Source of the DNA: Planctomycetota bacterium
Lineage (GTDB): Bacteria; Planctomycetota; Phycisphaerae; Phycisphaerales; UBA1924
Direction: 5' to 3'
Length of the DNA stretch: 64,000 nt
Assembly (NCBI GenBank): GCA_018242625.1
Contig: JAFEBO010000006.1
Location: 529,132 to 593,131, forward strand
The translations under genes and the position numbers were made by a program. This document shows, in pieces, positions 37,552-64,000 of this stretch. The first letter of the stretch is position 1, and each line of letters starts with the position of its first letter. The notes below the pieces were generated by a model, which saw nothing but the letters and a program-made list of their open reading frames with translations, did no database searches and was not told the DNA's origin.

Positions 37552-40500
37552 CTATTGGCAGACCAGTACGTTATACGCCTTGGCGAAGATCACGAAATCG
37601 GCGTCTTCGACGACGCCGTCCTCGTTGAGGTCGGCCGGGCAGGGCTCGGGCTGGAGCGGATAGGTCGGGGAGGGGGGGGTGGGGCATTCCAAGTTTTCGT
37701 AGGCGTAGAGGAAGTATTGGAAGTCGGTGTCGTCGACCAGGCCGTCGCCGTTGAAGTCGGCGGCGCAGGTGAGGCGGAGGGTGACATCGGTGGGCAGATA
37801 GTTGAGACGCCACTTGCGCTTGAGGGGTGAAACGGGCGGTGTGGGGAGATTGAAGCTGTCAAAGCCCCCCGTCCGCGTGGCGCCGGCGGAGCCATCGACA
37901 ATGGTGAAAAGATCGGTCGAGATGGGATTGAAGCCGCCGATCAGGGTCACCTTGAGAGCGCCCCCCAGCGAGTAGGGCTTGCTCATGGCGAGCGAGTCGT
38001 AAGCCGAGGCGGACGCCAGTTGCAGATCCCAGACGACGGCCGCGCCGATGCCCGGGCCCAGATCGAACGCGATGGTGCCCGTTCCGTTGGGGGAAGCGCC
38101 GGGGGCGACCGTGCCCTGGAGCAGCACGTTGCCGCCGACGGTGCCGCTGCCGCGGAGCGTCTGGGTGGGGGCCAAAGTGAGCAACTGGGGGGCGGCGGGG
38201 CCTTCGATCCGGGCGCGGCTTGCGATGTCGGGCTGGCCGTTCAGAATGATGTTGCCCGTGCCGAGAAGGGTCTGGCTGCCCGGGAAAATGAGCTTTGTCA
38301 GGCCCGCGCCGGCGGTCGTGTTGACGGTGATGTCGCTGTCGTTGGTGAAGCCGGAAAGCGAGAAGGCTGATCCCGCGGCGATGTCGATCGGGCAGGTGGT
38401 CCGCATGGAGGAGGCCGAGGCGGTGCCGTCAACGGTGAGGCGGCCGGCGCCGGTGCGGCTGAACTCGCCGCCGGAGATGGCGGCGCCGGAGCGCAGCGTG
38501 AGGGTTCCGGCTCCGGCGCGGATGCGTCCGCCGACGGATTGGGAGACCGGGCCCAAGATTTCGAGGAACTGTCCGGCGCTGCCGGCGGCGATGAGGCCGT
38601 TGTTCTGCATCTGGGCGTAGATGCGACCCTGTCCTGTGATGGAATGAGTTGAAGCCTGTGAAAGGGTGATGTCTTTGAGCGACTCGATGAGCGCCGAATC
38701 GAGATTGGAGGGATTGGCGTTGAGCGTGATCGAGCCGGTACCGGTCAGGGCGGTATCGGAGTTGGCCCGGAGACGGGTGATCTGCAGGTCGCCGGCGGGG
38801 TTGACGATCAGGGAGCCGTTGTTGGTGAGTGCGGTCAGTAGCTGGAGCAGTCCGCCACCCATGACGTGCGCCGTGCTGCCGCTGGTGAGGGTCAAGGAAC
38901 TCAGGAAGGCGGTTTCACCCTGCGGCACGCTCATCCTTCCGGTGCCGAAGCTGGTGAAGGAGCCTCCGCTAAGGGTCATGCCGTTGGCGATCTGGAGCGT
39001 GGCGTTGCTGGCGGAGATGCTGCCGCCGCTGTTCGTGAGATTGGATCGGAACTGGAGGGGGCCGTTCGGGTTGTTGGCGGAGATGAAGCCCTGATTGGTG
39101 ATCGGGAGGGCGACGCGACCTGTGCCGCGGATCGTGTGCCCGCTGGCGTTGGTGAGGGTGACGCCGGAAGCGCCGTCGAGCAGCGCGGAGTCAAGATCTG
39201 CGGAATTGGCGTTGAGGGTGAGGTTGCCGGCACCGGTGAGAGAGGCGGACTGGGTGAGGCGGATTCCGGTGGGCGTGTTGGTGGCGATGGAATTGACGAT
39301 GATCGTGCCGCTGTTGGCCATACCCGCATCGAGCCGGAGGCGGGAGCCGGGGCGGAGTTCCAGCGTGCTGGGAGAGGAGAGCGTGGTGCCCTTGAAGAGG
39401 GGCGATCCGAAGTCCTGGACGCGTGCGAACGCGCCGGCGATGGCCGAGATCGTGCCGCCGGTGATTGTCGGATTGCCCGAGAAAGCGAGCACGGCGCCAG
39501 CGGCCGATGCGCTCAGCGAGCCGCCGCCGGACAGATCCACATCGCCCAGAATCTCGAGGGTCTTGCCGGCGGAGCTGGCGTTGACCTTTGGGCTGCCCGA
39601 GAGAGGAGCGTAGATGCGGCCGCTGCCGCGGATGGTGTGGCCCGGAGCGATGGAGACTGCGCCGGCGGTCGAACTCAGCGATGCAGAGTCGAGATCGGAG
39701 GCGTTTGCGTTGAGGGAGGTGGTCGAGGTACTCGCGTTGCCAAGGGTGGCCGCGGCGATGACGACGAGTGCCGTCGGCGAATTCGCGGCCGACTGATTGA
39801 CCTGGATGTCGAAAACGCCGCTCAACGCGCCGGCGCCGATCTCCAGACGCGCGCCCGGTGCGATGGTGGCGTTGCCGGCGAGGGAGAGAGAGGCGATCCC
39901 GGCGAGATCGGGGACGCGGAGGAGTCCAGAGGGGCCGATGGCGATGGAGCCGCCCGCGAGTCGTGCACCTTGTGCGATTTCCAGGATGCCGGTCGTGGCC
40001 GAGACGGTGCCGCTGTTGGTGATGTCGCCCGCAATCTGGAGAACCTTGCCGGGCTGATCGGCGGTGATTGCGCCGAGGTTGGATGCCGGTCCGTAGAGCC
40101 GGCCGGTGCCGGCGATGGTGTGCCCGGGTGAATTGGTCCACGTGAAGCCGGGGTCGGCGCTGACGAACGCGCTGTCGAGCAGAGTGGGGTCGGCGTTCAG
40201 GCGGATGGTGCCTGAGCCGGAAATGACGGCGCCGGCGGGGAACCGGAGCTGGGTGATGAGCGCGGTGTTGGGCGGGTTGAAGGGCGCGGGCAGAGAGCCG
40301 TTGATCTGCAGCGTGCCGTCATTGATAAGCCCGGTGTTCAGCCCCGCGGATCCGACCGCGAGCACGGTGCCGGGATTCATCGAGAGGATGGCGGCGGCGT
40401 TTGCTATGTCGATGCCGACGACCTGTCCGGGTATGTCGAGCGTGGCGGTGTAAGCACCGGATCCGGCGAGGATTGCCTGATCCTGCGGCAGCGCCGGAAC

Positions 40501-40674: not shown

Positions 40675-40833
40675 CGCTGCTCACATCGGACGAACCACTA
40701 CCAGTGTGCCACACGCACCGCCAAAGCACTAGCCTAGAAGGGCGGAGAGGCGCGGAATAACTGCCACGGGCGGGTCGGGATGGCGAGTCCGGGGCATGTC
40801 CGAGAACTGCTGAATACGACGCGGGCGTGAGAT

Positions 40834-43992: not shown

Positions 43993-44766
43993 TCAGGGGC
44001 AAAGCAGGTCGTTATACGGAACGACAAAGAGCGGGAAGTCGGCATCATCGACAAGGCCGTCCCGGTTCAGGTCGGCGGGGCAGTTGCTGGGCATGGCGGG
44101 GTCCGCGCAGTCGAGCAGGTTGTAGGCGTAGGCGAAGATTGAGAAATCTTCATCGTCAACGAGCCGGTCGCCGGTGAGGTCGGCGGGGCATGGGCCGCCG
44201 ATGAGGGTGATCGAGGCGTCGGCCCAGCACATGTGGTTGGAGTTGTACTGGCCGGTGTGGTCGGTGATGAGCGAGAGTGTTGAAGCGCCGACAACGCTGA
44301 TGGCGACGGGGATGCTCGGGCTGGAGCGGCCCGCGATTGCGACCTGAGACTGGACCACTCCGTCGACGAGGACTGTGAAGACGCCGCCGTTGTTGTTCAC
44401 GCTTGTTGGATAGTCCACGCCGACGCGGGCGGTGAAGACGGCGAGATCGCGCGTCGTGTGGATGCGGAGTGCGGCGAGGGAGAAATCGATGCGCTTGCTC
44501 GCGAACTGGAAGGGATGCTCTCCGATCCCCTTGGCGAAGCTGCCCGCATCCTGGAATTGAATGGGAGAGGAAGCAAAGGTGCCCGGGCAATCGGCGCCGA
44601 ATCCGTACGGCAGGGCGCCGAAGGGAAGTGAGGTATAGGGCGGATTGGCCGCGGTTGCGGCGCTTCCGGAGGGGACGCCGAGGTAATCGCTGAGGTAAAT
44701 GAGATCGCCCACGGCCGCATTGGAAGCGAAGATGGCGAGGAGCGTGAGGCCGGTGGAAATGCCCAT
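43993..44766 (-). CDS. NPCBM/NEW2-domain secreted protein with dockerin
   Basis: A protein of about 257 residues. ATG 44766 starts a signal peptide (M-G-I-S-T-G-L-T-L-L-A-I-F-A-S-N-A-A). The single domain (residues 25-190) has F-A-K-G-I-G-E-H-P, F-T-A-R-V-G-V-D, V-F-T-V-L-V-D-G and L-S-L-I-T-D-H-T-G, which is the organisation of NPCBM carbohydrate-binding modules. The dockerin is at 43993-44190 and ends L-L-C-P. With no enzyme domain, this is probably a stand-alone glycan-binding component. It starts 14 bases after the stop of the duplicated-domain gene, so the two form an operon. Confidence 0.87.
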   Translation of the reverse strand: MGISTGLTLLAIFASNAAVGDLIYLSDYLGVPSGSAATAANPPYTSLPFGALPYGFGADCPGTFASSPIQFQDAGSFAKGIGEHPFQFASKRIDFSLAALRIHTTRDLAVFTARVGVDYPTSVNNNGGVFTVLVDGVVQSQVAIAGRSSPSIPVAISVVGASTLSLITDHTGQYNSNHMCWADASITLIGGPCPADLTGDRLVDDEDFSIFAYAYNLLDCADPAMPSNCPADLNRDGLVDDADFPLFVVPYNDLLCP

Positions 44767-44780
44767 AGCAAGGCTCCGGT

Positions 44781-46178
44781 TCAGGGGCAGAGCAGGACGT
44801 TGTACCCTACCACGAAGATGCTGAAATCGGCATCGTCCACGAGTCCGTCGCCGTTGAGATCGGCCGGGCATCCGGGCGCCATGGTGGGGTCGGCACAATC
44901 GAGCAGGTTGTACGCAACGACGAAGATCGAGAAGTCGGCGTCATCGACGAGTTCGTCGTCGTTCAGGTCCTGCAGGCAGCGGCCGCCGAGGGTGAGGTGA
45001 TCGAATGCGATGCCGTCGCCGAAGGCGCCAACGCGATTGTTGGCGAAACGGATGGAGTTGATGCTCGGGCCGGAGAGGGACTTGACGCGGAAGAAACCCT
45101 GTCGGCCGCCGAGCGCCGCGAGGCCCGAGATGGTGGCGAAATCGCCGATGTCACGCTCGTTGACCATCACCCGGGTGGGGCCGTCGATCTGCTGGACGCT
45201 GAATCCGACGCGCTGCTGAGGCGTGCTGAAGGTGAAGAGGATGTCTCCCCAGTTTGTTCCCGCGCTGTAGTTGAAAGACTGATTTCCAAGGCCGCTGATG
45301 ACGCAGCGTGAGCCGTCCCATACTCCGTTCAGGAAGGCAGTTCCGAAGGGATCGTTGGTGACGGGATTGAACAGATGGGGCAGCGTGTTGGAAGGCGCGA
45401 TGGTGCCGGCCGGGGCTTCCCAGCCGACGGCGAGCTGCGGGACGAGCGCGGCGTCTTCAAAGTCTTCGAAGATCGCGTTGGCTACGCCCAGCGACGTGTT
45501 GTCGATGCCCCAGATCGTGGGAGAAATGCCGTGCACCTCAACCGAGGGATTCGGAGCTGTTGAGAACGCGAGGTGGTCGAAGGTGAAGCCGTCACCGGAA
45601 GGGACTGAACCGTTCTTGATCTTGACCGAGCTGATGGTGTCGCTGTCGGTCGCCTGGATGACGATGTAGCCGTACTTGCCCCCGTTGGGAGAGAGGCCGG
45701 TGAGCGTGGAGAGCTTGCCCTTGTTGACGCCGTTGATGAAGAGCCCCAGATCGGTCTCGTTCTGGTGCACGCTGAAACCGACGATCCGCACCGGCGGATC
45801 GAACAGAAAGGTCACGTCGCCGTAGCTTCCCGAGTCGTTGTACGAGAACGTGTCGTTGGTCCGCGTGTTGAGCAGGCAGTGGGTGCCGTCAAAGGCGCCG
45901 CCGACGAAAGCGTTGCCGAACCCGTCGTCGGTCAAAGGGTTGAACACATTCGGAAGTACAGCGGTCGGCCCGACATTACCGGCCGGCGACTCCCAGAGCA
46001 CCTTGAGCCCGGGGGCGAGATTCACGTCTTCGAAGTCTTCAACCGTGGTGTTGCCGACACCCAGCGTGCCGTTGCTCTGGCCCCAGCGGATAGGGCTGAC
46101 GCCGTGGACCGAAATCCCGGCAAGAGCCGAGGACAGCCCGAAGGACACACCCACCCACGACGCGAGAAAACGCTGCAT
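44781..46178 (-). CDS. Secreted protein with two tandem duplicated domains and dockerin
   Basis: A 465-residue protein with a signal peptide (MQRFLASWVGVSFGLSSALA). It contains two homologous domains of about 190 residues. The first begins V-H-G-V-S-P-I-R-W-G, the second V-H-G-I-S-P-T-I-W-G; both continue with E-D-F-E-D, W-E-[SA]-P-A-G, F-N-P-[LV]-T-[DN]-D and end with a F-D-H-L strand. This is an internal duplication. Binding-type beta-sandwich domains are likely, but I do not recognise a named family. The dockerin lies at 44781-44978. It is the first gene of a two-gene unit with the NPCBM protein. Confidence 0.82.
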   Translation of the reverse strand: MQRFLASWVGVSFGLSSALAGISVHGVSPIRWGQSNGTLGVGNTTVEDFEDVNLAPGLKVLWESPAGNVGPTAVLPNVFNPLTDDGFGNAFVGGAFDGTHCLLNTRTNDTFSYNDSGSYGDVTFLFDPPVRIVGFSVHQNETDLGLFINGVNKGKLSTLTGLSPNGGKYGYIVIQATDSDTISSVKIKNGSVPSGDGFTFDHLAFSTAPNPSVEVHGISPTIWGIDNTSLGVANAIFEDFEDAALVPQLAVGWEAPAGTIAPSNTLPHLFNPVTNDPFGTAFLNGVWDGSRCVISGLGNQSFNYSAGTNWGDILFTFSTPQQRVGFSVQQIDGPTRVMVNERDIGDFATISGLAALGGRQGFFRVKSLSGPSINSIRFANNRVGAFGDGIAFDHLTLGGRCLQDLNDDELVDDADFSIFVVAYNLLDCADPTMAPGCPADLNGDGLVDDADFSIFVVGYNVLLCP

Positions 46179-46307: not shown

Positions 46308-47216
46308 TCAGGGGCAAAGCAGCGCGTTGTACGCCGCGGCGAAGATGACAAAGTCGCTGTCGTCGACGACGCCATCCTTATTCAGATCGCTCGGGCAATT
46401 GGAAGGCATGGCAGGGTCGGCGCAATCGAGGAGGTTGTACGCCGAGGCGAACTGCACGAAGTCGGCGTCGTCCACCATGCTGTCGCCGTTGAGATCGGCG
46501 GGGCAAGGCACTCCGATGATGAGGGTGAGTTTGGGAGGTCCGCCCCACGACGGATCGGAGCCGGAGAAACCGAAACATGCCTGGCGGTAGTTGCCGGAGG
46601 AGATCGTCGTGAGGTGGCCGCCGACCGCGAAGTTGTTGGCGCCAGAGGCGAGCCGCAGTTTCATCTCATTGGTGACCTTCGCGGGATCGAGCGTCATCGG
46701 AAGGTATCGAATTCCCTGGAAGGGCTCTGCGTTGGGCGTCAGTTCGCGCGAGCCGTAGATGATGCCATCGCCCAGATCGTTGTACGTGCTGTAGTGCAGC
46801 CAGATCGAGGTGTTGACGTCGAGCAGGTCAAAGTACGAGCTGTCGTTCACATGGAAGAGGGCGTAAGTCTCGGAGGGATCGAGGCTCTGATAATGGTTGA
46901 AGACGGTGCCGATTTCGAACGTGGCCGACTTCACCTGCTGGCCCGCAGGGATCATCCCAGGAGTTAGATTGAAAACAAAGTAGTTCCGCATGGCCGAGCC
47001 GTTGCCCATGTAGCCGCAGAGGTAATTGCCGGGGCCGGTGTTGAAGTTCTTGTTGTTCTGGCCGTACGAGGTGAAGAGGCCCTGGACCGAGGCCCAGAGC
47101 GTGACGGTCGTGTCCGCCCGGACGAGCGGGGCGGCGATCGCTATGGCCGCGGCGCCGAAAACCGCGGCGTAACGGGGGCGAGGGAAAATCGGGCGGATCG
47201 TGTTCGGGGCGCGCAT
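46308..47216 (-). CDS. Secreted protein of unknown fold with dockerin
   Basis: A 302-residue protein. The N-terminus has a basic start and a hydrophobic core (Y-A-A-V-F-G-A-A-A-I-A-I-A-A-P-L-V-R-A), cleaved near residue 35. The ectodomain has Q-V-K-S-A-T-F-E-I-G-T-V-F-N-H and R-L-A-S-G-A-N-N-F-A-V-G-G. These patterns recall DNRLRE/TGF-beta propeptide-like or lectin-like secreted beta domains, but the assignment is weak. The dockerin is at 46308-46505 and ends A-L-L-C-P. The gene is spaced by 129 and 175 bases from its neighbours and may have its own promoter. Confidence 0.78.
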   Translation of the reverse strand: MRAPNTIRPIFPRPRYAAVFGAAAIAIAAPLVRADTTVTLWASVQGLFTSYGQNNKNFNTGPGNYLCGYMGNGSAMRNYFVFNLTPGMIPAGQQVKSATFEIGTVFNHYQSLDPSETYALFHVNDSSYFDLLDVNTSIWLHYSTYNDLGDGIIYGSRELTPNAEPFQGIRYLPMTLDPAKVTNEMKLRLASGANNFAVGGHLTTISSGNYRQACFGFSGSDPSWGGPPKLTLIIGVPCPADLNGDSMVDDADFVQFASAYNLLDCADPAMPSNCPSDLNKDGVVDDSDFVIFAAAYNALLCP

Positions 47217-47391: not shown

Positions 47392-48663
47392 CTACGGGCA
47401 CAGTAAGTCGTCGTAGGCCTGGGCGAAGATCGCAAAGTCAGAGTCGTCCACCACTCCGTCCAAATTGAAATCGGCGGGGCAGTCGAGCGGCATTGAGGGG
47501 TCGGCGCAGTCCAATATGTCATAGTCGCGCGCGAAGGAGACAAAGTCCGCGTCGTCGACGGCACGGTCGCCGTTCAGATCCCCGGGGCAGTAGGCTCGGA
47601 ACATCTCCCACGCGGGCAGCGAACGGTGATCGAAATCGAAGAGCGCCAGGTTTTCCCAGGGGCTGGGAAGCCCGGAAAAGGCCGCAAACTCCGGTGCCCA
47701 GTAGCACACGCCCATGCCGCGGTTTTCCGGGAGTCCACGCTGGATGCGAAAAAGCCTGGAAACGAACCCGGCTTGGCCCTGGGGTGACGCCGCGAAGGAA
47801 GGCAAAAGCTGGGAGTTCTGCCAGACAAAGTTGGGCTGGGAATCGGACCATCCCAGTGTCCATGGGTAGGCGGTTTCGGCGATGAAGATGGGCTTTGCGT
47901 AGCGTGCCGCGACGTCCTGGAGATTTGCCGTGAGCGCATCGAGCGAGCCGTGCCACCACGGGTAGTAAGAGAGGCCGATCACGTCGAACGGAACACCGTA
48001 TTGCACGGCCCGATCGAAGAAAGCACGGGTGCCCGGGTTATCTCCCCCGCGATCAATATGGAGCATGATGCGGGCGGTCGGGCAGGCGGCGTGGACGCCG
48101 GTGATGCCCGCCTTCAGAAGCGTGGCGAGATTCTGCCAGTTCGGATCGCCCCAGAAGGAGACCTTGCCGTCATTCCACAGCATGCCGCCGGTGATCTCGT
48201 TGCCGATCTGGACGATGTCCGGCGGAGTGCCCTGCAGGACGAGCGACTGGACCAGGGACTGCGAGTAGCTCTGCACCGCGTAGGCGAGCTGGGAGAAGGA
48301 GAGGGACGCCCATGCGGCGGGCTTGTTCTGCTGGCCGGGATCGGCCCAGGAGTCGGAGTAGTGAATGTCGAGCACAAGTTTCAGTCCGGCCGCATGCGCT
48401 CGCTGCGCCAGGGCGAGTGTGCGTGCCGTGCCGCAGAAGCCGTCGGCCGGGCTGTGCCAGACGCGGAGGCGCACGGCGTTGACACCGTTTGAGGCGAAAA
48501 ATGCGAGCGGATCGACGGGTGTGCCGCCTGAAAAAAGAGTGCCGCCGAGCGACTCGATCTGAGGGATGAACGAGCAGTCGACGGCGCGGAGGGGCTCATC
48601 CGCCCGGGCGGCGCTCGCGCACAAGGCCAGGAGTGCAAGATAAGAGATCGAGCCCACTCTCAT
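47392..48663 (-). CDS. GH53 endo-beta-1,4-galactanase with dockerin
   Basis: A protein of about 423 residues. ATG 48663 starts the signal peptide M-R-V-G-S-I-S-Y-L-A-L-L-A-L-C-A-S; the longer frame overlaps the previous gene. The TIM barrel carries GH53 motifs: R-L-R-V-W-H-S-P near residue 58, D-I-H-Y-S-D-S-W-A-D-P-G near 99, V-Q-I-G-N-E-I-T-G-G with the acid/base Glu near 156, and I-F-I-A-E-T-A-Y-P-W with the nucleophile near 263. GH53 enzymes cleave arabinogalactan type I. The dockerin is at 47392-47589. The gene starts 7 bases after the GH15 stop, so it is co-transcribed with that glucoamylase. Confidence 0.93.
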   Translation of the reverse strand: MRVGSISYLALLALCASAARADEPLRAVDCSFIPQIESLGGTLFSGGTPVDPLAFFASNGVNAVRLRVWHSPADGFCGTARTLALAQRAHAAGLKLVLDIHYSDSWADPGQQNKPAAWASLSFSQLAYAVQSYSQSLVQSLVLQGTPPDIVQIGNEITGGMLWNDGKVSFWGDPNWQNLATLLKAGITGVHAACPTARIMLHIDRGGDNPGTRAFFDRAVQYGVPFDVIGLSYYPWWHGSLDALTANLQDVAARYAKPIFIAETAYPWTLGWSDSQPNFVWQNSQLLPSFAASPQGQAGFVSRLFRIQRGLPENRGMGVCYWAPEFAAFSGLPSPWENLALFDFDHRSLPAWEMFRAYCPGDLNGDRAVDDADFVSFARDYDILDCADPSMPLDCPADFNLDGVVDDSDFAIFAQAYDDLLCP

Positions 48664-48670
48664 CGGGTTC

Positions 48671-51952: not shown

Positions 51953-51999
51953 TGCAAAGACTCCTCCGGGCACCTGCTGACGCCCCGGCTCACCCGTTA

Positions 52000-53445: not shown

Positions 53446-53471
53446 ACGGCGATTTGCATGCAACGCTTCTC

Positions 53472-53586: not shown

Positions 53587-54780
53587 ATGAGGCAAGGCTT
53601 AGTAGGAGCGGTCTTGGCGCTGGCGGCGGGCGCGTCGTTGTGCGCCGCGCAGCAGTGCACGGGACAGGTCGGCTGGTGGAAGTTCGATGGCGACGTGAGC
53701 GATTCGTCGGGGCTGGGGAACAGCGGCACGTTTTTCGGAGGACTTCCCAACTTTGTGCCGGGCGTGCACGGCCAGGCGCTGGAACTGGACGGCATCGACG
53801 ACTTCGTCCGCGTGCAGAATGTTGCCTCGCTCAATCCTTCGTCCGCGATATCCCTTGTCGCGTGGGCACGGATCAGGCCTTATGCGGGTTCGGGCTCCGA
53901 TCCGATCATCGACAAGGCGTATTTCTCGCACAACCCGCCGTACTACCAGTACCACCTCGGAGTTACCGGTTCTCAATACGGCAACTCGCAGCGATCGATC
54001 TCGTTTGTGACCTCCACCTCCGCGGGGAGCATCGGCACGGGCACGGCGCCGCTCGCGTATTCGACTGGCCAATGGTGCTTCGTCGTGGGAACGTACGACG
54101 GGACCAAGAGCCGCTTTTATTTGAACGGCGAGCTGCTGGACACCCAGGTGCTGCAGGGAACGATCAGTGATTTCGGCTCGCCGTTGCAGTTCGGAAAGTT
54201 CAACAACCTGAACTTCTTTCTGCCCGCGGCGCTGGACGATATCCGCATCTTCAATCGCGCCATCAGCGCGGACGAGGTTGCGGCGCTCTATGCCAATCCG
54301 GAGGGTGCGGCGGCTGTATTGCCGGCGGCGGCGGGCGTGTGCGCGGGCGGGTCGGTGACATTCCGCGCCGCGCACCTGGCGAGCGCCTCGGCGGCGTACG
54401 CATGGAAACTCGACGGCAGCCCGATCTCCGATGGCACGCTGCCCGATGGCACGACCGTGAGCGGCTCTTCAACCGGCGAGTTGACGCTCGGCGGGCTCTT
54501 CGGCGCGGCGGTGCGCTCGGTGACCTGCGATGTGACCTCGTGCTCCGGTATCTCGCAGACTCCGGCGGCCACGGTGCGGGTGTGCGCGTCCGATTTCAAT
54601 TGCGACGGCGCGGTCGACGACGCGGACTTTGTGTCCTTTGCCGCCGCGTACAACCTGCTGGTCTGCGACGACGCCGAGATGCCCGCGGGCTGTCCGGGCG
54701 ATCTGAATCGCGACGGCCAGGTGGATGATGCCGACTTCGTCATCTTCGTCGCGGCGTACGATGCACTGATCTGTCCATAG
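53587..54780 (+). CDS. LamG-domain secreted protein with dockerin
   Basis: A 397-residue protein; ATG 53587 follows GGGGAGAGG and starts a signal peptide (M-R-Q-G-L-V-G-A-V-L-A-L-A-A-G-A). Residues 25-235 form a concanavalin-like LamG domain: G-W-W-K-F-D-G-D-V-S-D-S-S-G near the start, then L-E-L-D-G-I-D-D-F-V-R-V, G-T-Y-D-G-T-K-S-R-F-Y-L-N-G and L-D-D-I-R-I-F-N-R-A-I-S at the end. This is followed by an Ig-like segment (A-Y-A-W-K-L-D-G-S-P-I). The dockerin is at 54583-54780 and ends A-L-I-C-P. LamG domains bind glycans or proteins; no hydrolase domain is present. It is the first of the plus-strand dockerin genes. Confidence 0.87.
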   Translation: MRQGLVGAVLALAAGASLCAAQQCTGQVGWWKFDGDVSDSSGLGNSGTFFGGLPNFVPGVHGQALELDGIDDFVRVQNVASLNPSSAISLVAWARIRPYAGSGSDPIIDKAYFSHNPPYYQYHLGVTGSQYGNSQRSISFVTSTSAGSIGTGTAPLAYSTGQWCFVVGTYDGTKSRFYLNGELLDTQVLQGTISDFGSPLQFGKFNNLNFFLPAALDDIRIFNRAISADEVAALYANPEGAAAVLPAAAGVCAGGSVTFRAAHLASASAAYAWKLDGSPISDGTLPDGTTVSGSSTGELTLGGLFGAAVRSVTCDVTSCSGISQTPAATVRVCASDFNCDGAVDDADFVSFAAAYNLLVCDDAEMPAGCPGDLNRDGQVDDADFVIFVAAYDALICP

Positions 54781-54915: not shown

Positions 54916-56481
54916 ATGCGTTTGGACAGTGTTTTTGTGTCCGCTTGCTGCGCGCTCGCCTGCCACGGCCTTGCCCAGCCCACCTACGACGTTCTCGACG
55001 TTGGCGACCTTGTCAACGGCGTCGGCACCTCCGATCCCCGCGGCATCAACAACGCCGGTCAGGTTATCGGCACCGCCTCGCCCGCCAGTGGCCCGACCCG
55101 CGGTTTTCGTTGGGAGCCCGCAAACGGCATCAAAGCTCTGCTCAGCGCGCTGCCCGGACAGACCAACGCGAACGCCGTCGTCGTCGATCCGTACTTCATC
55201 GCCAACGACGGCACCGTGCTCGGCGGTGCGCCCGTCTACAACGGCGCCAGTTTCGTGAACTATCACGCGGCCAAATGGACCAGCCCCACCGCGTCGTTCG
55301 AAATCCTCAACTCCGGCACGCAGCGCTCCAACGCCAGCGCCATGAACGCGCTGGGCGACATCGCCGGTTACGAGAACATCCCGCCCGGCTTCAGCCGCCC
55401 CCGTCTCTGGCTCGCCGACGGCAGCACGGTCAGCATCCCGATCCTCCCCAGCGAGACGATCGGCATCGCCCAGCGCATCACCGACGACGGTCGCACCCTG
55501 GTCTACGTCAGTCAGTCCGCCTCGCCCTATCTCAAGGCTTTCATCCGCAAGCCCGACGGCACCCGCGTCGACATCCCCTTCATCGCCGGCACCGAGCAGT
55601 TCACGCCCGCGGACATGAACAACCTGGGCCAGGTTGTGGGCGTGGTGCGTCAGGGCAGCCTGAGCAAGGCGATCATCTGGGACGAAACCGGCGGCACACG
55701 CTTCCTGCCTCTGGGCACAATGACCGAGTCGGGCGCCATGGGCATCAACGACGCGGGCGCGATCGTCGGCTGGGTGAAGGGTCCGGGCTTCGCGTTCCTG
55801 ACCGCCGCCATCTGGTACACGCCCACGTCCAACCCAGTCATCTTGTCCCAACGCCTCACGCCGGCTTCCAGCACCTGGGGCATTGTCGGCGGCGACAGCG
55901 TCAGCGACATCAACGAGAGCGGCTGGATCCTGGTGACCGGCCTCACGCCCCCCAAGCCCGGTCGCTACCAGCACGCCGCGGTGCTCGCCCCTGCGTACCC
56001 GTGCCCGGTCTTCAGTGATCATCCGGACAACGTCCGCTTCAACTACAACTCCTCGATCATTTATCTCGGTGCCGCGGCGAGTTCGAATCAGGTCATCACC
56101 TACTCCTGGAAGCGCAACGGGCAGACTGTGACCGACGGCCTCTACGGCAACACCCGCGTCATCGGAGCGACGACCAACGCCCTGCGGATTCAGAATCCGA
56201 CGCCCGCCTGGGCCGGCGAGTGGATCTGCGAAGCAACGAACGCGTGCAGCACCGTGGCGAGCACGGCGGCACAGGTAACGATCTGCCGCGCCGATTTCAA
56301 CAACGACAATCAGGTGGACGATGCCGATTTCGGCACGTTCGTTGTTTCGTACAACTTGCTGGACTGTTTCGATCCGGGGATGGTGGGGGGCTGCCGCGCC
56401 GACCTCAACGGCGACCTCGTCGTGGATGACGCGGATTTCACTCATTTTGTGCTCGCATACAACGATCTGGTGTGCCCCTGA
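54916..56481 (+). CDS. HAF-repeat-like secreted protein with Ig-like domain and dockerin
   Basis: A 521-residue protein, start ATG 54916 with CGGAGA upstream and a short signal peptide ending near A-C-H-G-L-A-Q. The main domain (residues 25-350) shows repeats of the type G-I-N-N-A-G-Q-V-I-G-T, A-M-N-A-L-G-D-I-A-G-Y, D-M-N-N-L-G-Q-V-V-G-V and G-I-N-D-A-G-A-I-V-G-W. These match the HAF family of extracellular repeats, probably a beta-propeller. An Ig-like domain (I-T-Y-S-W-K-R-N-G-Q-T-V-T-D-G) follows near residues 360-455. The dockerin is at 56284-56481 and ends L-V-C-P. Function is unknown, probably binding. Confidence 0.83.
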   Translation: MRLDSVFVSACCALACHGLAQPTYDVLDVGDLVNGVGTSDPRGINNAGQVIGTASPASGPTRGFRWEPANGIKALLSALPGQTNANAVVVDPYFIANDGTVLGGAPVYNGASFVNYHAAKWTSPTASFEILNSGTQRSNASAMNALGDIAGYENIPPGFSRPRLWLADGSTVSIPILPSETIGIAQRITDDGRTLVYVSQSASPYLKAFIRKPDGTRVDIPFIAGTEQFTPADMNNLGQVVGVVRQGSLSKAIIWDETGGTRFLPLGTMTESGAMGINDAGAIVGWVKGPGFAFLTAAIWYTPTSNPVILSQRLTPASSTWGIVGGDSVSDINESGWILVTGLTPPKPGRYQHAAVLAPAYPCPVFSDHPDNVRFNYNSSIIYLGAAASSNQVITYSWKRNGQTVTDGLYGNTRVIGATTNALRIQNPTPAWAGEWICEATNACSTVASTAAQVTICRADFNNDNQVDDADFGTFVVSYNLLDCFDPGMVGGCRADLNGDLVVDDADFTHFVLAYNDLVCP

Positions 56482-56572: not shown

Positions 56573-57835
56573 ATGCAAACAACGCGTCTGATCACGCTCG
56601 CGCTCCTTACGTTCACCAGTTCTATGTCGCTCGGACAGTCGCTGGTGGGCGCCAGTGCCCCCAACACGGTCGGCGGGCAGGGCGGCAGCGATCTCATTGT
56701 CATCGACCCCGCCACGGGCTCGTGGGACTTCTACATGCGTGTCCCCCACGACACCAGCGACAGCCGCCAGCTCTACTACTTCACCTCGCTTCCGGGTTGC
56801 CGCCTCGCCTCAACCCTCTACCGCAACAACGGCACCGCCAACACGACCGCCCAGTACATGGTCATCAACCCCGGCACCGGCGGCGTCTCGACCTTCAATT
56901 TCGGTGCGCCGCTCGCAACCAGTTACATTGAAGGAATCGAGTACTCTCCCCGCCACGGCAACCTGCTGGTGTCTTTCGGCGCGCTGGGCAACTTTGGTAC
57001 CAACCGTCTCGCGGTTGTCAACGCCGACGATGGCACCGTGATCTCGAGTACGACCGCGATCTCGGGCATTGCCGACATGGACTACATCGTGAGCACCGCT
57101 TCCGAGGACCTGTTCATCGATTTCAATGCGGGCACCGCCGCGGCCCGCATCAAAAAGCTCACGAACCCGCTCCCCGCGACCGCGTTTACAAGTTTCGCCT
57201 CGCCGCCGCTCCTGAACCTCTATTGGGATGCCGCCCGGCACCCATCCACCAACGAAATCATCTTCGCCGATACCAACGGTAATCGTCTGGTGCGTCTGGT
57301 CGGGAATGCCTATGTCAGCGGTCCCAGCCTGGCGGGCGGAGCCCAGATTCGTGGGCTCGCGTGGGGGTTCCTGCCCCCCCGGACGGTGATGCCCGCGTTT
57401 GCGGGCGTCTGCCCCGGCGGCACCGCCACCATCACGGCGCACGCGGTGGGCACGGGGCCGTTCTCGTACAAGTGGCGAAAGGACGGTCAGGACATCGCCG
57501 CGAGCGAGAACCCGTCCGCGCTCAAGCCCACGCTGGAACTTCCCGGAGCCAGCGGCGCAACGGTCGGTCAGTACGATTGCGTGATACTCAACGACTGCGG
57601 CACGCATGTCACCGACGCTGTTCCTTTCATCCTTTGCGTCGCCGATCTCAACTGCGACGGCGCTGTGGACGACACCGATTTCACGATTTTCCTTGTTCAG
57701 TACAACATTCTCGATTGCGCCGACCCGTCCATGCCAGCCGGCTGCAGTTGCGATTTCAATGCGGACGGAATCGTCGAGGACACCGATTTCCAGCTTTTCC
57801 TGCCCGCCTACAACCGCTTCGCCTGCGGCGAATGA
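56573..57835 (+). CDS. Secreted propeller-like protein with Ig-like domain and dockerin
   Basis: A protein of about 420 residues. ATG 56573 with GGAGGG upstream starts the signal peptide M-Q-T-T-R-L-I-T-L-A-L-L-T-F-T-S. Residues 25-265 contain strands of the form G-N-L-L-V-S-F-G-A-L-G, R-L-A-V-V-N-A-D-D-G-T and N-E-I-I-F-A-D-T-N-G-N-R-L, suggesting an NHL/YVTN-like propeller; the family is not certain. An Ig-like domain follows (F-S-Y-K-W-R-K-D-G-Q-D-I). The dockerin (57635-57835) is divergent: its second half begins C-S-C-D-F-N and it ends C-G-E instead of C-P. Confidence 0.82.
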   Translation: MQTTRLITLALLTFTSSMSLGQSLVGASAPNTVGGQGGSDLIVIDPATGSWDFYMRVPHDTSDSRQLYYFTSLPGCRLASTLYRNNGTANTTAQYMVINPGTGGVSTFNFGAPLATSYIEGIEYSPRHGNLLVSFGALGNFGTNRLAVVNADDGTVISSTTAISGIADMDYIVSTASEDLFIDFNAGTAAARIKKLTNPLPATAFTSFASPPLLNLYWDAARHPSTNEIIFADTNGNRLVRLVGNAYVSGPSLAGGAQIRGLAWGFLPPRTVMPAFAGVCPGGTATITAHAVGTGPFSYKWRKDGQDIAASENPSALKPTLELPGASGATVGQYDCVILNDCGTHVTDAVPFILCVADLNCDGAVDDTDFTIFLVQYNILDCADPSMPAGCSCDFNADGIVEDTDFQLFLPAYNRFACGE

Positions 57836-58054
57836 ACTCGCATCTTATCGCAGTTGCATTTCCACCAAAGGGGGCTCCGGCGACCATGTTGCCATTGTGT
57901 ATACTGCAAGCCTCGAGGGGTATTGGGTTAGGAATCAATGCAATAAAACTGGGCCGCAAGAGCGCGAATGGTGAGGGCATACTCACAGTGTGTGTTCTGG
58001 CAGGTGCTTCATAGAACGGGTTTGTGCTGTCACGGATTTCGGGAGTCCATCGTC

Positions 58055-61000
58055 ATGATGATCGGGATTCAACGGTGCTTGCTCGCGGTCCTGGCGGTTC
58101 TCATTTGCCTGCAAGCTCGAGCGGACTGGGGTCTCAAGTTTGAAGTGTGGGACGGTTCGAACTGGGTGAGCAGTGTGAACGCGGCTGTCGGGGATGTTGT
58201 CAAATTCCGCGTCGGCTCCTATTTCACCGACGGCACCTTGGTCATTACGGCAGACGGCGCGGGTGGCGCTCTTGACCTGAATCGCTTTACCGGCTCGAAC
58301 AAGTTCACGAACTTCTCGGTCGGTCAGGACGTGATCCAGAACCTCGTCCGCACGATGCCGACGGGCAACGTCGCGCTCCTGACCAATACGGGCAACGGCG
58401 TCGTGGGCACCACGGTGGCCACGAGCTTTGCTTCGCAGGTGATCCTCGGAGACCTCAATCCGACTCCCATTTATTACCGCGAGATCTATAAGGGCGAAAT
58501 CAAGATCGTGGACGGCACGGCCCGCACTCTGACCTGGACCTCGAACAGCTTCGGTGTCGGGAGCGTCAAGGGGCTCACTTTCTACAACGCCGGCTCACCG
58601 ATCAACAAGAACACCGCCGCGCCCGAGGGAACTCCCACGCACATCCCGGCGCAGATCGCGGTCAGCGGGTGCGCGAAGCCGGGCGTGAGCGGCCCGAGCG
58701 CTCAGTCCGTTTGCGCCGGATCGCAGGTTTCCTTCTCCGTAACTGCGACGTTCGGGCCTGTCACCTATCAATGGCGCAAGAACTCGAATCCGATCGATGG
58801 CCAGACGCAGAGCACACTCACTCTGAATACTGTGAACAAGGACGATGAAGGGGAGTACGACGTCATCGTCACGAATGCGTGCGGGTCGACGACAAGCGGC
58901 AAGGCGGCGCTCGCGGTTTATGCGCCCCCCGCAGTTCTTTCCCAGCCCAACAGTGTTGTTGTGCGCCCGGGGTCCAACGGCGGATTCTCGGTCGTCGCCG
59001 TCGGCAGCGGGCCGCTGCAGTACCAATGGAAGAAAGACAACGTCGCGCTCTCGGATGGAGGCCGGATCGCCGGTGCTCTTACAGCGGTGCTCCAGATCTC
59101 AAACGCCCAGGTGGCGGACAAAGGCGAGTATTCCTGCACGGTGACGGATCCAATCAATCCGTTCTGCAACTCGACCACAACTGCGACTGCGCAGTTCAGC
59201 GTGGGCGACTGCGCGATCACATGGGCGCAGGTTGCGACCTCGGGCCCAGGTGCGCGGCGCAATCCCGCGATGGCGTACGACTCCGCGCGTGGGCGCCTTG
59301 TTCTCTTCGGGGGTTCCAACAACTCGGGCACGCTCGGCGATACGTGGGAATGGGACGGCAGCACGTGGACGCTGCGATCGACCAGCGGGCCAGGGCCGCG
59401 GACCGGCGTGGCGATGGCGTTTGATGCGACCCACGGCCGAACTCTTCTCTTCGGCGGCTACAACGCCGCTTCCCAGGCCCAGAGTGATACGTGGAGCTGG
59501 GACGGAACAACCTGGACCAAGGTTGCAACCACGGGTCCGACCGCACGCTTCTACGGGACAATGACCTTTGATGGAGCCCGGGGTGAGATTATCTTCTTTG
59601 GGGGGCTCCAGCAGAATTTCGCTCTTCCTTCAGATACCTGGGCGTGGGATGGGGTTAAGTGGGTGCTGGTATCGAACACGGGCCCCGGAGGCAGGTACGC
59701 CGCTTCGATGGCATACGACTCGGTCCGCCAGCGCGTAGTGGTGTTCGGCGGATTTGATGTGTCCAGCACGAACTTCGCCGACACCTGGGAGTGGGACGGT
59801 GTTGCTTGGGCGAAGAAGGCCGACGGCACGCCGACGGCCCGCACCGGGGCGTCGCTGGCGTTCGATCCCGGACGCGGCCGCATCATCATGTTCGGCGGGC
59901 GCCTGCAGGTTGAGGATCAGATCGCCTGGAGCACCCGTACGTGGGAGTGGGACGGCACGACTTGGGTTTCAACCCTGACCGGAAATCCGTCGGCACGCTG
60001 GCTCGCGGGCATGACGCTGGATACTTCCAAGCAGCGCATCGTGCTTTTCGGAGGTGAGGATTCGAGCGGCGGCTTGCTCGGAGACACATGGGAGCTCGCT
60101 GCCCGCATCCCCATCACCCAGCAGCCGACCAGCGTCGCAACCAACTTCGGTCAGAACGCGGCGTTCAACGTCGCGGCAACCGGCACGGGCCTGACCTATC
60201 GCTGGCGGAAGAACGGCGCCGACCTGACCGCCGATCCTCGGATCAGCGGTGTGGCCACTCCAAACCTGCTGATCACCCAGGCCGGACTTCAGGATGAAGG
60301 GACGTACGACGTTGTGATCACCAGCCTCTGCGGTCAGGAGATCAGCCAGCAGGCGCTGCTCTCGGTCGCCAGCTGCCCATCCTCGTGGCAGGACCTGCAG
60401 GTGAGCGGCCCCATCCCGCGGTTCAGCGGCGCGGCCGCGGCGGACGTGCCGCACAAGCAGATCGTGCTGTTCGGAGGCCGCTCGAGCGGCGGTCTGCTCG
60501 GGGATACCTGGATCTGGAACGGCAACGCGTGGAGCCAGAGGTTCGTCGTCGGCCCGAGCGCACGTTCGGACCACACCATGGCTTCGTGGGGGTCGGGCGT
60601 CCTGCTGTTCGGCGGGCGAGATACGCCCGGCAATACCAACAAAAGCGACACATGGTTCTGGAACGGCACGTCCTGGGCACAGCTCAGTCCGCCCCACGCG
60701 CCCCCGGAACTCGCCGGGCATTCGATGGCGTACGACAGCGTGCGCAACCGCGTCGTCGTCTTCGGCGGCGTCAAGTCCGGCGACATCTTCAGCAACGAGA
60801 CATGGGAGTTCGACGGCTCAGACTGGACGATGGTCGCGGCGTCGGGCCCGGCACCCAGATTTGCGCAGAGCATGACCTTCGACTCGGTACGCGGCAAGAC
60901 CGTGATGTACGGCGGAGCGCTGTTCTTCGGAACCGTCTTCTTCGACACATGGGAGTGGGACGGCGTTGCCTGGACCAAGAAGTTTGAAGGTGGCCCTCCC

Positions 61001-61720
61001 GCTCAGGTCTACGGGTCACTCACGTTTGATCCGCTCCGCGGGCGCAGCATCTTTGTCAGCGGCTACACGCACAACCGGGTCTTCTCATCCGAAACCTGGG
61101 AGTGGAACGGCACCAACTGGGCCAAGTCGCTCAACATCAGCCCATCGGTTCGGGAACTCCCCGCGGTGGCGTACGACTACCAGCGGTCGCGACTGGTGCT
61201 GTTCGGGGGCCTCAATCCGGCGGGCACGTACCTTGGCGATTCCTGGGGCCTGATCCTGGGCCCCTCGGTTGTGACGCCTCCGCAAAACCAGATCGTGCCC
61301 GCAGTCCATGCCGCGATCTTTTCAGTCAGCGGGTCCGCGCCCGGATTGCAGTATCAGTGGCTCCGGAATGGATCCAACATGGCTGATGGCGGGCGCATCT
61401 CCGGGACGCACACCTCCACTCTGACGATCGCGACGGCGACCGCCGCGGACGCCGCGAGCTACCGCGTGCGCGTCACCGATGCGTGCGGCTCCAACGTGAT
61501 CTCCGCGCCGGCGACGCTCACGGTGACGTGCGTGTCCGACCTGAACGGCGACGGGGTCGTGGATGATGCCGATTTCTCAGTCTTTGTCGTCGCGTACGAC
61601 GCGCTGCTCTGTGATCCGGCGCCGACCGCCTGCGTTGCCGATCTGAACGTGGACGGCTTTGTGGACGATTCGGACTTCACGATCTTCGTTGTCGCGTACG
61701 ACAATCTCGAGTGTCCGTGA
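58055..61720 (+). CDS. Multidomain protein: Ig-like domains, two Kelch propellers, dockerin
   Basis: A protein of about 1221 residues, start ATG 58055 (or 58058) with a signal peptide ending near C-L-Q-A-R-A. The order is: a unique N-terminal domain to about residue 205, Ig-like 1 (Y-Q-W-R-K-N-S-N-P-I), Ig-like 2 (Y-Q-W-K-K-D-N-V-A-L), six Kelch repeats (about 388-682), Ig-like 3 (Y-R-W-R-K-N-G-A-D-L), six more Kelch repeats (about 776-1066), Ig-like 4 (Y-Q-W-L-R-N-G-S-N-M), dockerin. Each Kelch unit has a D-x-x-R-x-R-[IVL]-V-[LM]-F-G-G core followed by D-T-W-E-W-[DN]-G-x-x-W. The dockerin (61529-61720) has a six-residue linker rather than eight. It is a binding or scaffold protein with no catalytic domain. 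Confidence 0.88.
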   Translation: MMIGIQRCLLAVLAVLICLQARADWGLKFEVWDGSNWVSSVNAAVGDVVKFRVGSYFTDGTLVITADGAGGALDLNRFTGSNKFTNFSVGQDVIQNLVRTMPTGNVALLTNTGNGVVGTTVATSFASQVILGDLNPTPIYYREIYKGEIKIVDGTARTLTWTSNSFGVGSVKGLTFYNAGSPINKNTAAPEGTPTHIPAQIAVSGCAKPGVSGPSAQSVCAGSQVSFSVTATFGPVTYQWRKNSNPIDGQTQSTLTLNTVNKDDEGEYDVIVTNACGSTTSGKAALAVYAPPAVLSQPNSVVVRPGSNGGFSVVAVGSGPLQYQWKKDNVALSDGGRIAGALTAVLQISNAQVADKGEYSCTVTDPINPFCNSTTTATAQFSVGDCAITWAQVATSGPGARRNPAMAYDSARGRLVLFGGSNNSGTLGDTWEWDGSTWTLRSTSGPGPRTGVAMAFDATHGRTLLFGGYNAASQAQSDTWSWDGTTWTKVATTGPTARFYGTMTFDGARGEIIFFGGLQQNFALPSDTWAWDGVKWVLVSNTGPGGRYAASMAYDSVRQRVVVFGGFDVSSTNFADTWEWDGVAWAKKADGTPTARTGASLAFDPGRGRIIMFGGRLQVEDQIAWSTRTWEWDGTTWVSTLTGNPSARWLAGMTLDTSKQRIVLFGGEDSSGGLLGDTWELAARIPITQQPTSVATNFGQNAAFNVAATGTGLTYRWRKNGADLTADPRISGVATPNLLITQAGLQDEGTYDVVITSLCGQEISQQALLSVASCPSSWQDLQVSGPIPRFSGAAAADVPHKQIVLFGGRSSGGLLGDTWIWNGNAWSQRFVVGPSARSDHTMASWGSGVLLFGGRDTPGNTNKSDTWFWNGTSWAQLSPPHAPPELAGHSMAYDSVRNRVVVFGGVKSGDIFSNETWEFDGSDWTMVAASGPAPRFAQSMTFDSVRGKTVMYGGALFFGTVFFDTWEWDGVAWTKKFEGGPPAQVYGSLTFDPLRGRSIFVSGYTHNRVFSSETWEWNGTNWAKSLNISPSVRELPAVAYDYQRSRLVLFGGLNPAGTYLGDSWGLILGPSVVTPPQNQIVPAVHAAIFSVSGSAPGLQYQWLRNGSNMADGGRISGTHTSTLTIATATAADAASYRVRVTDACGSNVISAPATLTVTCVSDLNGDGVVDDADFSVFVVAYDALLCDPAPTACVADLNVDGFVDDSDFTIFVVAYDNLECP

Positions 61721-61746
61721 TTTCCTGACGGAACCAGAGCGTCGGG

Positions 61747-61773
61747 GAGCGCCGGCGCCCCCCGGCGCTCATT
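61747..61773 (+). terminator. Hairpin, possible terminator
   Basis: GAGCGCCGG (61747-61755) and CCGGCGCTC (61762-61770) form a perfect 9-bp stem with a 6-base loop, 26 bases after the Kelch gene stop. Only ATTT follows, so intrinsic termination would be weak. Confidence 0.5.
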
Positions 61774-61787
61774 TGAAAGGCGCCGAT

Positions 61788-64000
61788 ATGGCCGCGTATG
61801 TAGCCGCCCTTCGCAAGACGGTTCTCACGCTCGCCGGTGCGGTCTGCGCTTCGGAGGCGTCCGCGCTGCCGCCGGGCTTTGCGGACGAGGCTGTGCTGGG
61901 AAACTGGGACCGGGCGGCGGGCGTTGCATTTTCTCCCGACGGGCGCTGCTTTGTCTGGGAAAAAGCCGGACGGGTGTGGATTGTCGAGGGTGGCGTTCGG
62001 TCCGCGCAGCCGCTCATCGATATCCGCTCGGAGGTGCGGGACTTTGGCGATTACGGGCTGCTCGGCTTCGCTATCGACCCCGGATTTGCGACAAACGGTC
62101 GCATCTACCTCCTCTACGCCGCCGACTACTACCACGTTACGCATTTCGGACAGCCCGACTTCGATCCGACCCAGCACAACCTGCAGCGCGACAGCATTGG
62201 GCGTATCACCCGGTACAGCTGCAACTCGTCCGACGGGTTTCATTCGGTGGATCCGGCCTCCCGCAAGGTGCTCGTCGGAGAGTCTCTCTCCACGGGCTTC
62301 CCGATGACCTTTCAGTCACACGGCGTCGGCACGATCACCTTCGCCGAAGACGGCTCTCTTCTGGCCGGGAGCGGTGATGCGGCGAGCTTCCTCGAAATGG
62401 ACGACGGGGGCCCCCGGCTTGGTTCATCCAATACAGCGCTCCCCGACGGGATCATCACCCCGAAGGAAGACGTCGGTGCTTTTCGCTCGCAGCTCGTCGA
62501 TTCTCTCGCGGGCAAGATCATCCGCGTCAGCCCCGAGACCGGTGACGGGCTGGTTTCAAATCCGTTCTTTGACAGCGCATTCCCGCGGGCTCCCCGGTCA
62601 CGCGTCTGGGCCATGGGGCTTCGCAACCCGTACCGCTTCGGGATTCGTCCGGGTTCCGCAAGCTCCGCCAATCCCGCAGGCGTTCTCTACATTGGCGATG
62701 TCGGCTGGGACGCGCACGAAGAGCTGAACATTGCGCGTGCGCCGGGTCTGAACTTTGGCTGGCCTCTGTTCGAGGGGCTCGAGAGCCAGCCCCTGTACAC
62801 AGCTTCTCTCGCGCGGAACCTCGATGCCCCGAACCCTCTCACGAACGCCGGATGCGATCCGCACTTTGGCTTCCGTGATCTCCTCGTGCAGGAGACCCTC
62901 GCCACCCCTGTCTGGCCCAATCCCTGCCAACCACTGGTTCAGATCCCTGCGAGCATCCGGCACTTCGAGCACACAAGGCCCGCGATCGAATGGGGCCACG
63001 GGTATACGACACGACTCCCGGTCTTCGCAGGACAAGAGGCCGCTGCAATCGACATCACCAACCCCGATTCACCCGTTGTCGGCGTGCCGATTTCCGGCAA
63101 CTGCTCTTTGGGAGGAGTCTGGTACACGTCTTCCGCCTTCGGGCCGGAGTACCAGAACACCTGCTTCCTGGGAGACTTTGTCACAGGAACGATCAAATGC
63201 CTGGTTGTGGACACGCAGAATGACCAACTCGTAACGGTTCGCGACTTTCACGAGACCGGAGGTCCGATTGTCTGCATCGCGATGCATCCGATCGACGGCT
63301 CACTTTATTACCTCGCGTACACCTACAACGGCGCATCCACTCTCCGTCGCATCTCGCGAACTTCCAACCTGCCGCCAGTTGTCAGCGCAGGTGCGTCTGC
63401 TTCGTACGGGCCTTCGCCGCTCCTGGTGCAATTCTCAACGCTGGGCACGACCGATCCGGAGGGTTCGGCGCTGACATTCCACTGGGCCTTTGGCGATGGG
63501 TCTCCCGGAAGCACAGAGGCCAATCCTGTGCACGTTTTTTCGGCGCCCCCGGGGACTCCCGTTCGCTACGACGTGCTGCTCACCGTCTCGGATGGGATCA
63601 ATACCGTCCACAAATCCTTTGTCATTTCCCCCAACAACTCGCCGCCGGCCGTCGAGATCACCAGCCCCGCCGCCAAACTCGTTATTGAAGTTCAGGGAGA
63701 AGTCTCGCTGCCCCTTGCCGCCACGGTTTCAGACGCCGAGTCCCTGCCCGGCTCGCTCACCTGCTCCTGGCAGCGCATCCTCCACCACAACACGCACACA
63801 CACCCGGATCCGGCCCAGCCCGGCTGTGGCGCGACCGGGGAAATCGACCTCCACGGCACAACGGGCGACCTCTATTTCTTCGAGTTTCTTCTCACCGTGA
63901 CCGACCCTCAGGGTCTTTCGACCAGCCGCAGCTCTTCGGTGTATCCAGTCCTCTGCCTTGGCGATCTCAACGCGGATTCCGTGGTTGACGACGCTGATTT
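61788..64000 (+). CDS. Secreted sugar-dehydrogenase-like protein with PKD domain and dockerin start, partial
   Basis: The frame runs from ATG 61788 off the right edge (over 737 residues). After a signal-like N-terminus comes a six-bladed glucose/sorbosone dehydrogenase domain (residues 30-510): L-L-G-F-A-I-D-P-G-F-A-T-N-G-R-I-Y-L, S-H-G-V-G-T-I-T-F-A-E-D-G with the likely catalytic His, G-K-I-I-R-V-S-P-E-T-G-D, and A-M-G-L-R-N-P-Y-R-F-G. The family oxidises sugars with PQQ. A PKD-like domain (H-W-A-F-G-D-G-S-P-G) and a second beta domain (S-P-P-A-V-E-I-T-S-P) follow. At 63954 the dockerin begins (C-L-G-D-L-N-A-D-S-V-V-D-D-A-D) and is cut by the window edge. Confidence 0.87.
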   Translation, partial: MAAYVAALRKTVLTLAGAVCASEASALPPGFADEAVLGNWDRAAGVAFSPDGRCFVWEKAGRVWIVEGGVRSAQPLIDIRSEVRDFGDYGLLGFAIDPGFATNGRIYLLYAADYYHVTHFGQPDFDPTQHNLQRDSIGRITRYSCNSSDGFHSVDPASRKVLVGESLSTGFPMTFQSHGVGTITFAEDGSLLAGSGDAASFLEMDDGGPRLGSSNTALPDGIITPKEDVGAFRSQLVDSLAGKIIRVSPETGDGLVSNPFFDSAFPRAPRSRVWAMGLRNPYRFGIRPGSASSANPAGVLYIGDVGWDAHEELNIARAPGLNFGWPLFEGLESQPLYTASLARNLDAPNPLTNAGCDPHFGFRDLLVQETLATPVWPNPCQPLVQIPASIRHFEHTRPAIEWGHGYTTRLPVFAGQEAAAIDITNPDSPVVGVPISGNCSLGGVWYTSSAFGPEYQNTCFLGDFVTGTIKCLVVDTQNDQLVTVRDFHETGGPIVCIAMHPIDGSLYYLAYTYNGASTLRRISRTSNLPPVVSAGASASYGPSPLLVQFSTLGTTDPEGSALTFHWAFGDGSPGSTEANPVHVFSAPPGTPVRYDVLLTVSDGINTVHKSFVISPNNSPPAVEITSPAAKLVIEVQGEVSLPLAATVSDAESLPGSLTCSWQRILHHNTHTHPDPAQPGCGATGEIDLHGTTGDLYFFEFLLTVTDPQGLSTSRSSSVYPVLCLGDLNADSVVDDAD

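Follow-up and report, generated by a model that had tools for sequence, protein, structure and literature searches.

Dockerin-tagged secreted proteins and a predicted cohesin-fold family with exosortase-type tails in a planctomycete genus

The planctomycete genome that contains the 64,000-nucleotide stretch analysed here (the window) encodes at least 150 secreted proteins with the same C-terminal dockerin-like tag. The initial annotation had suggested a modular extracellular display system with an unknown receptor. The display part is well supported at the sequence level by the strictly C-terminal position of the tags, their exchange with another tail and a near-invariant Asp at loop position 10, and the receptor now has a strong candidate, a domain with a predicted cohesin fold. 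We propose a cohesin-dockerin surface display system that is anchored by exosortase, is distinct from cellulosomes and operates genome-wide with cryptic cohesins, a proposal that we judge slightly likelier to hold than to fail. On the predicted structures, the system would appear less cohesin-free than equipped with cohesins diverged past detection and carried on an exosortase-type tail. The main supports for this reading are the match of the modelled fold and the co-occurrence of the tags with the cohesin-fold family, which is limited to one clade and therefore counts as one event.

By six-frame reading, the 26 kb from 37552 to 64000 encode twelve secreted proteins with the tag and contain a single gene without it, as had been described. 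Eleven of the two-repeat tags are complete, and the twelfth is cut by the right window edge and completed past it (G000:C9:593085-593279). Seven tags are on the minus strand and five on the plus strand. All twelve N-termini are signal-peptide-like according to a simple heuristic, in line with the secretion assumed earlier. The ectodomains first read as GH81, GH53, GH15, CBM6, NPCBM, LamG, propeller and sugar dehydrogenase were also recovered with Pfam/NCBIfam, as GH81 with CBM6, NPCBM, GH53, GH15 and LamG, and further as HAF repeat/Ig, Kelch/Ig and glucose/sorbosone dehydrogenase with PKD. The features are as follows, the start of tagged protein 10 having been chosen at the signal-peptide Met.

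1..1682, minus strand: further tagged protein, N-terminal part; tag outside the window, to its left (G000:C9:527985-528179)
37552..40674, minus strand: tagged protein 1 (1040 aa) with a long ectodomain rich in repeats, no family assigned
37555-37767, minus strand: tag of tagged protein 1, inter-repeat segment of 22 residues
40834..43749, minus strand: tagged protein 2, GH81 with CBM6 inserted; tag 40840-41031
43993..44772, minus strand: tagged protein 3, NPCBM domain; tag 43996-44190
44781..46178, minus strand: tagged protein 4, an unnamed domain present as two repeats; tag 44784-44978
46308..47216, minus strand: tagged protein 5, weak DNRLRE match; tag 46311-46505
47392..48660, minus strand: tagged protein 6, GH53; tag 47395-47589
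48671..51955, minus strand: tagged protein 7, GH15-type; tag 48674-48868
52198..53445, plus strand: untagged ABC substrate-binding protein of branched-chain amino-acid type (PF13458)
53587..54780, plus strand: tagged protein 8, LamG-like lectin domain; tag 54583-54777
54916..56481, plus strand: tagged protein 9, HAF repeat and Ig; tag 56284-56478
56573..57835, plus strand: tagged protein 10, Ig-like domain followed by the tag; tag 57635-57826
57968..61720, plus strand: tagged protein 11, adaptor-like, with predicted cohesin-fold domain, Ig, Kelch propeller, Ig and dockerin
58124..58663, plus strand: predicted cohesin-fold domain of tagged protein 11, candidate dockerin-binding module, without Pfam match
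61529-61717, plus strand: tag of tagged protein 11, inter-repeat segment of the short type
61788..64000, plus strand: tagged protein 12, glucose/sorbosone dehydrogenase with PKD; tag from 63954

When 150 tags were placed at random on 3.76 Mb in 2000 trials, the maximum per 26.4-kb window was 10 and 12 was never reached, so the clustering exceeds chance. It is not the densest of the genome, as 14 tags lie near C9:324-350 kb. Between the ABC substrate-binding gene (52198-53445) and permease-like genes that follow shortly after the right window edge (L067:1977-4294) lie the five plus-strand tagged genes, and the tagged cluster looks as if it had grown inside a transport operon. Outside the dockerin cluster, a PEP-tailed protein is encoded at positions 24290-25153 of the window; it matches 'choice-of-anchor C' weakly.

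The consensus of the tag is CxADLNGDGxVDDADFxxFAxAYNLLDC-ADPxMPxG-CPADLNxDGxVDDADFxIFxxAYNxLLCP. Its AlphaFold (AF2) model (pLDDT 80.8) was matched by VIA-align to dockerin or dockerin-containing chains in all 15 PDB rows listed (Z 7.1 to 3.0), the comparison with 2y3n_B giving Z 7.1 and 1.8 A over 54 residues. The four leading PDB matches found by Foldseek were dockerin-bearing, and the PDB sequence matches of the tag include 2y3n_B as well. According to the model, the tag is of dockerin fold. The tag scored below the cut-offs of both NF041540 (best window score 26.3 vs 29 bits, nine window proteins scanned) and PF00404 (best window score 18.8 vs 22.9 bits). Judged by sequence, it is a divergent, four-cysteine relative of the GC-type dockerin (NF041540), and not a member by that model.

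In 87 tags, each of the two repeats has an almost invariant Asp at loop positions 1, 5, 9 and 12. Position 10 is Asp in 173 of 174 repeats, and we take it to be a partner-recognition site in known dockerins, not a Ca2+ ligand. The partner-recognition residues of known dockerins lie at the two positions preceding the last Ca2+ ligand. Four cysteines are present in 75 of the 87 two-repeat tags and only the outer two in 11, one of which has a third cysteine out of register, while the first is missing in one tag; a single inner cysteine in register was found in none of the 87. The two inner cysteines are present or absent jointly, and their absence goes with a shorter segment between the repeats. 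This segment measures 16 residues in 70 of the 87 genome tags. Since the inner cysteines are lost only together, pairing of the first with the fourth and of the second with the third is most likely. Disulfides joining the first to the second and the third to the fourth were considered, but the joint loss fits the outer-outer and inner-inner arrangement instead.

Some tags depart from the common form. Seven tagged paralogues, mostly of ~750 aa, are clustered together in L053-L056 (G000:C9:280001-360000; e.g. L054:3252-5522), and their tag is of the two-cysteine, short-segment form (CPGDFNGDGQVDDxDF...DPRGDL...CP); similarity to ThuA was weak in the one member scanned. The protein encoded at L059:10748-13735 ends in a single half-tag, one repeat between its own two cysteines. 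The product of the 132-aa ORF at L056:6551-6949 consists almost entirely of a signal peptide and a dockerin, and eight residues follow the matched tag.

The search for further copies suggested in the initial annotation found at least 150 in the window genome (G000; 3.76 Mb in 12 contigs, 92% complete), as all 150 scored candidates matched, among 236 candidates. In 364 kb of this genome, 89 tagged ORFs carry one tag each, the split hits among them being the two repeats of one short tag and not two domains. The tag ends at most one residue from the stop in 84 of the 89, and nearly all have a signal-peptide-like start. Four-Cys tags number at least 101 in each of the eight genomes of the genus, and other genera of the same family have 0-21 weak matches per genome. 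GC-type dockerins are found by the dozens per genome in most other genomes of the family, with more than 80 at most. Scanning a contig collection with a broader alignment gave nine related loci, from Phycisphaerales / Planctomycetota MAGs, after a narrower first scan of the same collection had found no relative. A two-tag locus in the distant genome G055 was set aside, no obvious sorting gene being located alongside.

A second C-terminal module, a PEP-CTERM-like tail with the motif VPAPGxxALLGLGGLxxARRRR, is present in about 55-60 proteins of G000. The tails of the four PEP-tailed cohesin-fold proteins matched PF07589 over the full length with E 0.0005-0.007, just under the Pfam cut-off. G000 contains one exosortase gene (PF09721, E 8.7e-49), which, from our reading of the flanking proteins, sits in an exopolysaccharide-type locus; exosortase was found in 61 of 61 genomes. 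Several ectodomain families of G000 carry either a dockerin or a PEP-like tail, and the LTD-like and lectin-like domains, so named by inspection, also occur with both. Because several ectodomain families are found with either one, the two tails appear to be interchangeable modules, and this interchange suggests a role in localisation for the dockerin tag as well. Tail exchange alone does not mark a receptor, since other ectodomains also occur with both tails. In a literature search, no paper naming PEP-CTERM and dockerin together was found, nor was the term 'GC-type dockerin'.

The genome was searched for cohesins with PF00963, as the initial annotation had advised, and gave 0 matches at E<=1; none was found in the eight genomes of the genus either. 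The earlier statement that no cohesin is present thus holds by sequence (Pfam, in genome and genus) and fails by fold, the domain at 58124-58663 being predicted to have a cohesin fold. Among 60 relatives, the Pfam cohesin was absent from nearly all, the few matches including those in G015 and G017. The three in G015 are on a 3.6-kb contig and have TPTP-rich linkers, and contamination is suspected. G017 encodes a protein with a true Pfam cohesin, an HYR-like domain and a dockerin. Directly before it, a PEP-tailed protein with weak cohesin similarity is encoded (L069:8342-11983, in G017:C1); the arrangement of this pair resembles that of anchor and adaptor in the 'planctosome' discussed below, in a genus with few GC-type dockerins. 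The PEP-tailed protein has no homologue in the window's genus except for its tail. A planctomycete cohesin profile gave two weak matches in the genus, the stronger of which (L073) is antisense to a flhF-like gene and was taken as chance. Because GC-type dockerins are many and the Pfam cohesin occurs in hardly any relative, dockerins without recognisable cohesins are the rule in this family.

The cohesin-fold family was marked as a possible receptor from its PEP-tailed copies, prior to any folding. In the window it is represented by the first domain (180 residues) of the protein 57968-61720. The AF2 model of this domain, built from a 22-sequence alignment, has a pLDDT of 90.6 and a pTM of 0.87. 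The first seven Foldseek PDB matches were cohesins (best E 1.9e-5), as were all VIA-align PDB rows from 1 to 42 (Z 11.1 down to 9.3), the top row giving Z 11.1 and 3.0 A over 131 residues. Pilin domains also matched the model, with Z about 9, below the cohesin rows. Comparison of the family with cohesins by hhalign gave no signal (probability 0.1% or less), and the cohesin identity is drawn from the predicted fold because sequence profiles give no link. The domain is thus predicted to fold like a cohesin and is a strong candidate for the missing receptor. Chains of 5lxv, 6kge, 5nrm and 2y3n, which we take to be cohesin-dockerin complexes, surfaced in the structure searches with both the tag and the domain. 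Eight columns of the family are invariant, three of them Arg, and one may guess at a salt bridge between an invariant Arg and the position-10 Asp at the interface with the tag.

A 36-sequence profile, run against 400 genomes of the order, detected the family in eight. These are all the genomes of the genus and no others, and each of them has at least 101 four-Cys tags. The profile scored 4-8 copies per genus genome, an earlier one 4-9; of the six in G000, four have a PEP-CTERM-like tail and two a dockerin tag. All 45 domains collected occur singly in their proteins, 27 with PEP-like and 18 with dockerin ends. By analogy, the PEP-tailed copies have the layout of a cell-anchored receptor and the dockerin-tagged ones that of an adaptor. 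PEP-tailed genes of the family are also found in tandem arrays of three or four (L139-L145, L159-L164), in a gene neighbourhood shared by several species of the genus.

The tail context changes six times on the tree of the domains, five of the changes being forced by well-supported branches, and a single-clade constraint was rejected (p-AU 1.9e-46). The window domain is 76% identical to that of a PEP-tailed protein of the same genome. The adaptor (57968-61720) has orthologues in three other species with 64-66% identity past the first domain, and without that domain it is orthologous across four species at 64-82%. The cohesin-fold domain of the G000 adaptor is 75% identical to the PEP-tailed copy of that genome and at most 56% to the listed copies from other species; for the G005 adaptor, these values are 87% and at most 65%. 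Since the first domain is nearest the anchored copy of its own genome though the remainder of the adaptor is orthologous, some context changes probably represent within-genome domain exchange between anchored and adaptor genes. Such exchange would fit a need of both kinds of protein to bind the same tags. The inter-repeat segment is short (11-14 residues) in nine of the nine dockerin-tagged members with a stretch separating the cohesin-fold domain from the tag, and these short-segment dockerins possibly constitute a second dockerin class.

In the system that we propose, varied secreted proteins would each bear one C-terminal dockerin made of two F-hand repeats that bind Ca2+; an outer disulfide, and in most cases also an inner one, would close it. 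The small, genus-specific cohesin-fold family would be the socket for this tag. The exosortase, the only one of the genome, would process its PEP-tailed copies, which would be retained in the envelope of the cell, each as an anchor with one cohesin. Into these anchors the secreted clients would plug by their C-terminal dockerin in a Ca2+-dependent manner. The dockerin-bearing copies (cohesin-fold, Kelch/Ig and dockerin) might serve as adaptors that extend the display, placing the cargo on the cell surface. Somewhat less probable, at just short of an even chance, is the fuller version in which the genus displays more than 150 secreted proteins on a few exosortase-anchored, profile-invisible single-domain cohesins, with anchor and adaptor cohesins kept alike by exchange and dockerins that are interchangeable. 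If so, the orphan dockerins of the other genera of the family would have equally hidden cohesins.

The most serious competing explanation, which we consider rather unlikely, is that the tag, as a C-terminal signal for sorting or anchoring, binds another envelope protein or a polysaccharide, the cohesin-fold domain being mere cargo with a 'choice of anchor'. The strictly C-terminal position of the single tag per protein, the several unrelated ectodomain families of G000 that occur with either tail and the lack of a cohesin at the sequence level all agree with it. So do the dozens of GC-type dockerins in genera that have no cohesin-fold domain, because of which those genera would need other receptors. 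However, the supposed cargo is predicted to fold like the known partner of dockerins, cohesins filling the first 42 rows, and in two species the adaptor domain is nearest the anchored copy of the same genome.

It is improbable that the true receptor is a divergent cohesin of another family, i.e. that dockerin display uses a different socket, even if most of the 55-60 or so PEP-tailed proteins of G000 have no assigned fold and, in G017, a PEP-tailed, weakly cohesin-like protein adjoins the Pfam cohesin protein, because a cohesin-fold family with the right anchors is already present in every genus genome. Least credible, and very improbable, is the absence of any common partner, the tag being a compact, disulfide-locked Ca2+-binding cap that stabilises the proteins or is removed, and the proteins being soluble. 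Cysteines and Ca2+ loops alone would explain much of the conservation of the tag, but the Asp at position 10, which is no Ca2+ ligand and yet nearly invariant in either repeat, speaks against a cap, as do the exchange with an anchoring tail and the at least 150 copies in one genome.

Many genomes encode dockerins without cohesins, which raises the question of what such dockerins bind. Like the tag, the GC-type dockerin (NF041540, 'GC-type dockerin domain-anchored protein') has two F-hand repeats, a Cys before the first loop and a Cys at or beside the C-terminus, and many genomes of the family contain dozens to more than 80 copies of it. The tag differs from it in that mostly an additional, inner pair of cysteines is present, the segment between the repeats is longer, the score was below the model cut-off in the nine window proteins scanned, and the four-Cys form is confined to one genus among the relatives searched. 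With the clostridial cellulosome, the window system shares the dockerin fold, the cohesin fold (predicted here), the adaptor (cohesin and dockerin) and anchoring (cohesin and anchor) layouts, and dockerin-bearing glycoside hydrolases (GH81, GH53, GH15), here amid many non-enzymes. It differs by single cohesin-fold domains where cellulosomes have multi-cohesin scaffoldins (type I/II dockerins), by a PEP-CTERM-like tail as anchor instead of SLH or LPXTG, by a cargo that is mostly not cellulolytic and by putative cohesins that are unrecognisable by sequence.

The nearest published idea is the 'planctosome' of freshwater Nemodlikiaceae, in which cohesin and dockerin proteins were proposed to form a non-cellulosomal surface complex with a cohesin-dockerin adaptor (PMC6461901), a layout seen in both systems. 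The 'planctosome' model builds on cohesins that can be recognised, with an LTD anchor and peptidases as cargo. The window system differs in that no cohesin can be recognised by sequence, the putative anchor is of exosortase type, and the clients are diverse and number at least 150. An expansion of dockerins has also been described in kelp-associated planctomycetes (PMC5264255). As in PEP-CTERM/exosortase sorting, the window genome has VPAPG-hydrophobic-RRRR tails and one exosortase in an exopolysaccharide-type locus, but here the tail would hold a receptor for other proteins and not only its bearer. If this is true, a sequence-invisible cohesin-fold family in the same cluster, on an exosortase-type anchor, would answer the orphan-dockerin question for one group, and would join the exosortase and cohesin-dockerin systems in Gram-negative planctomycetes.
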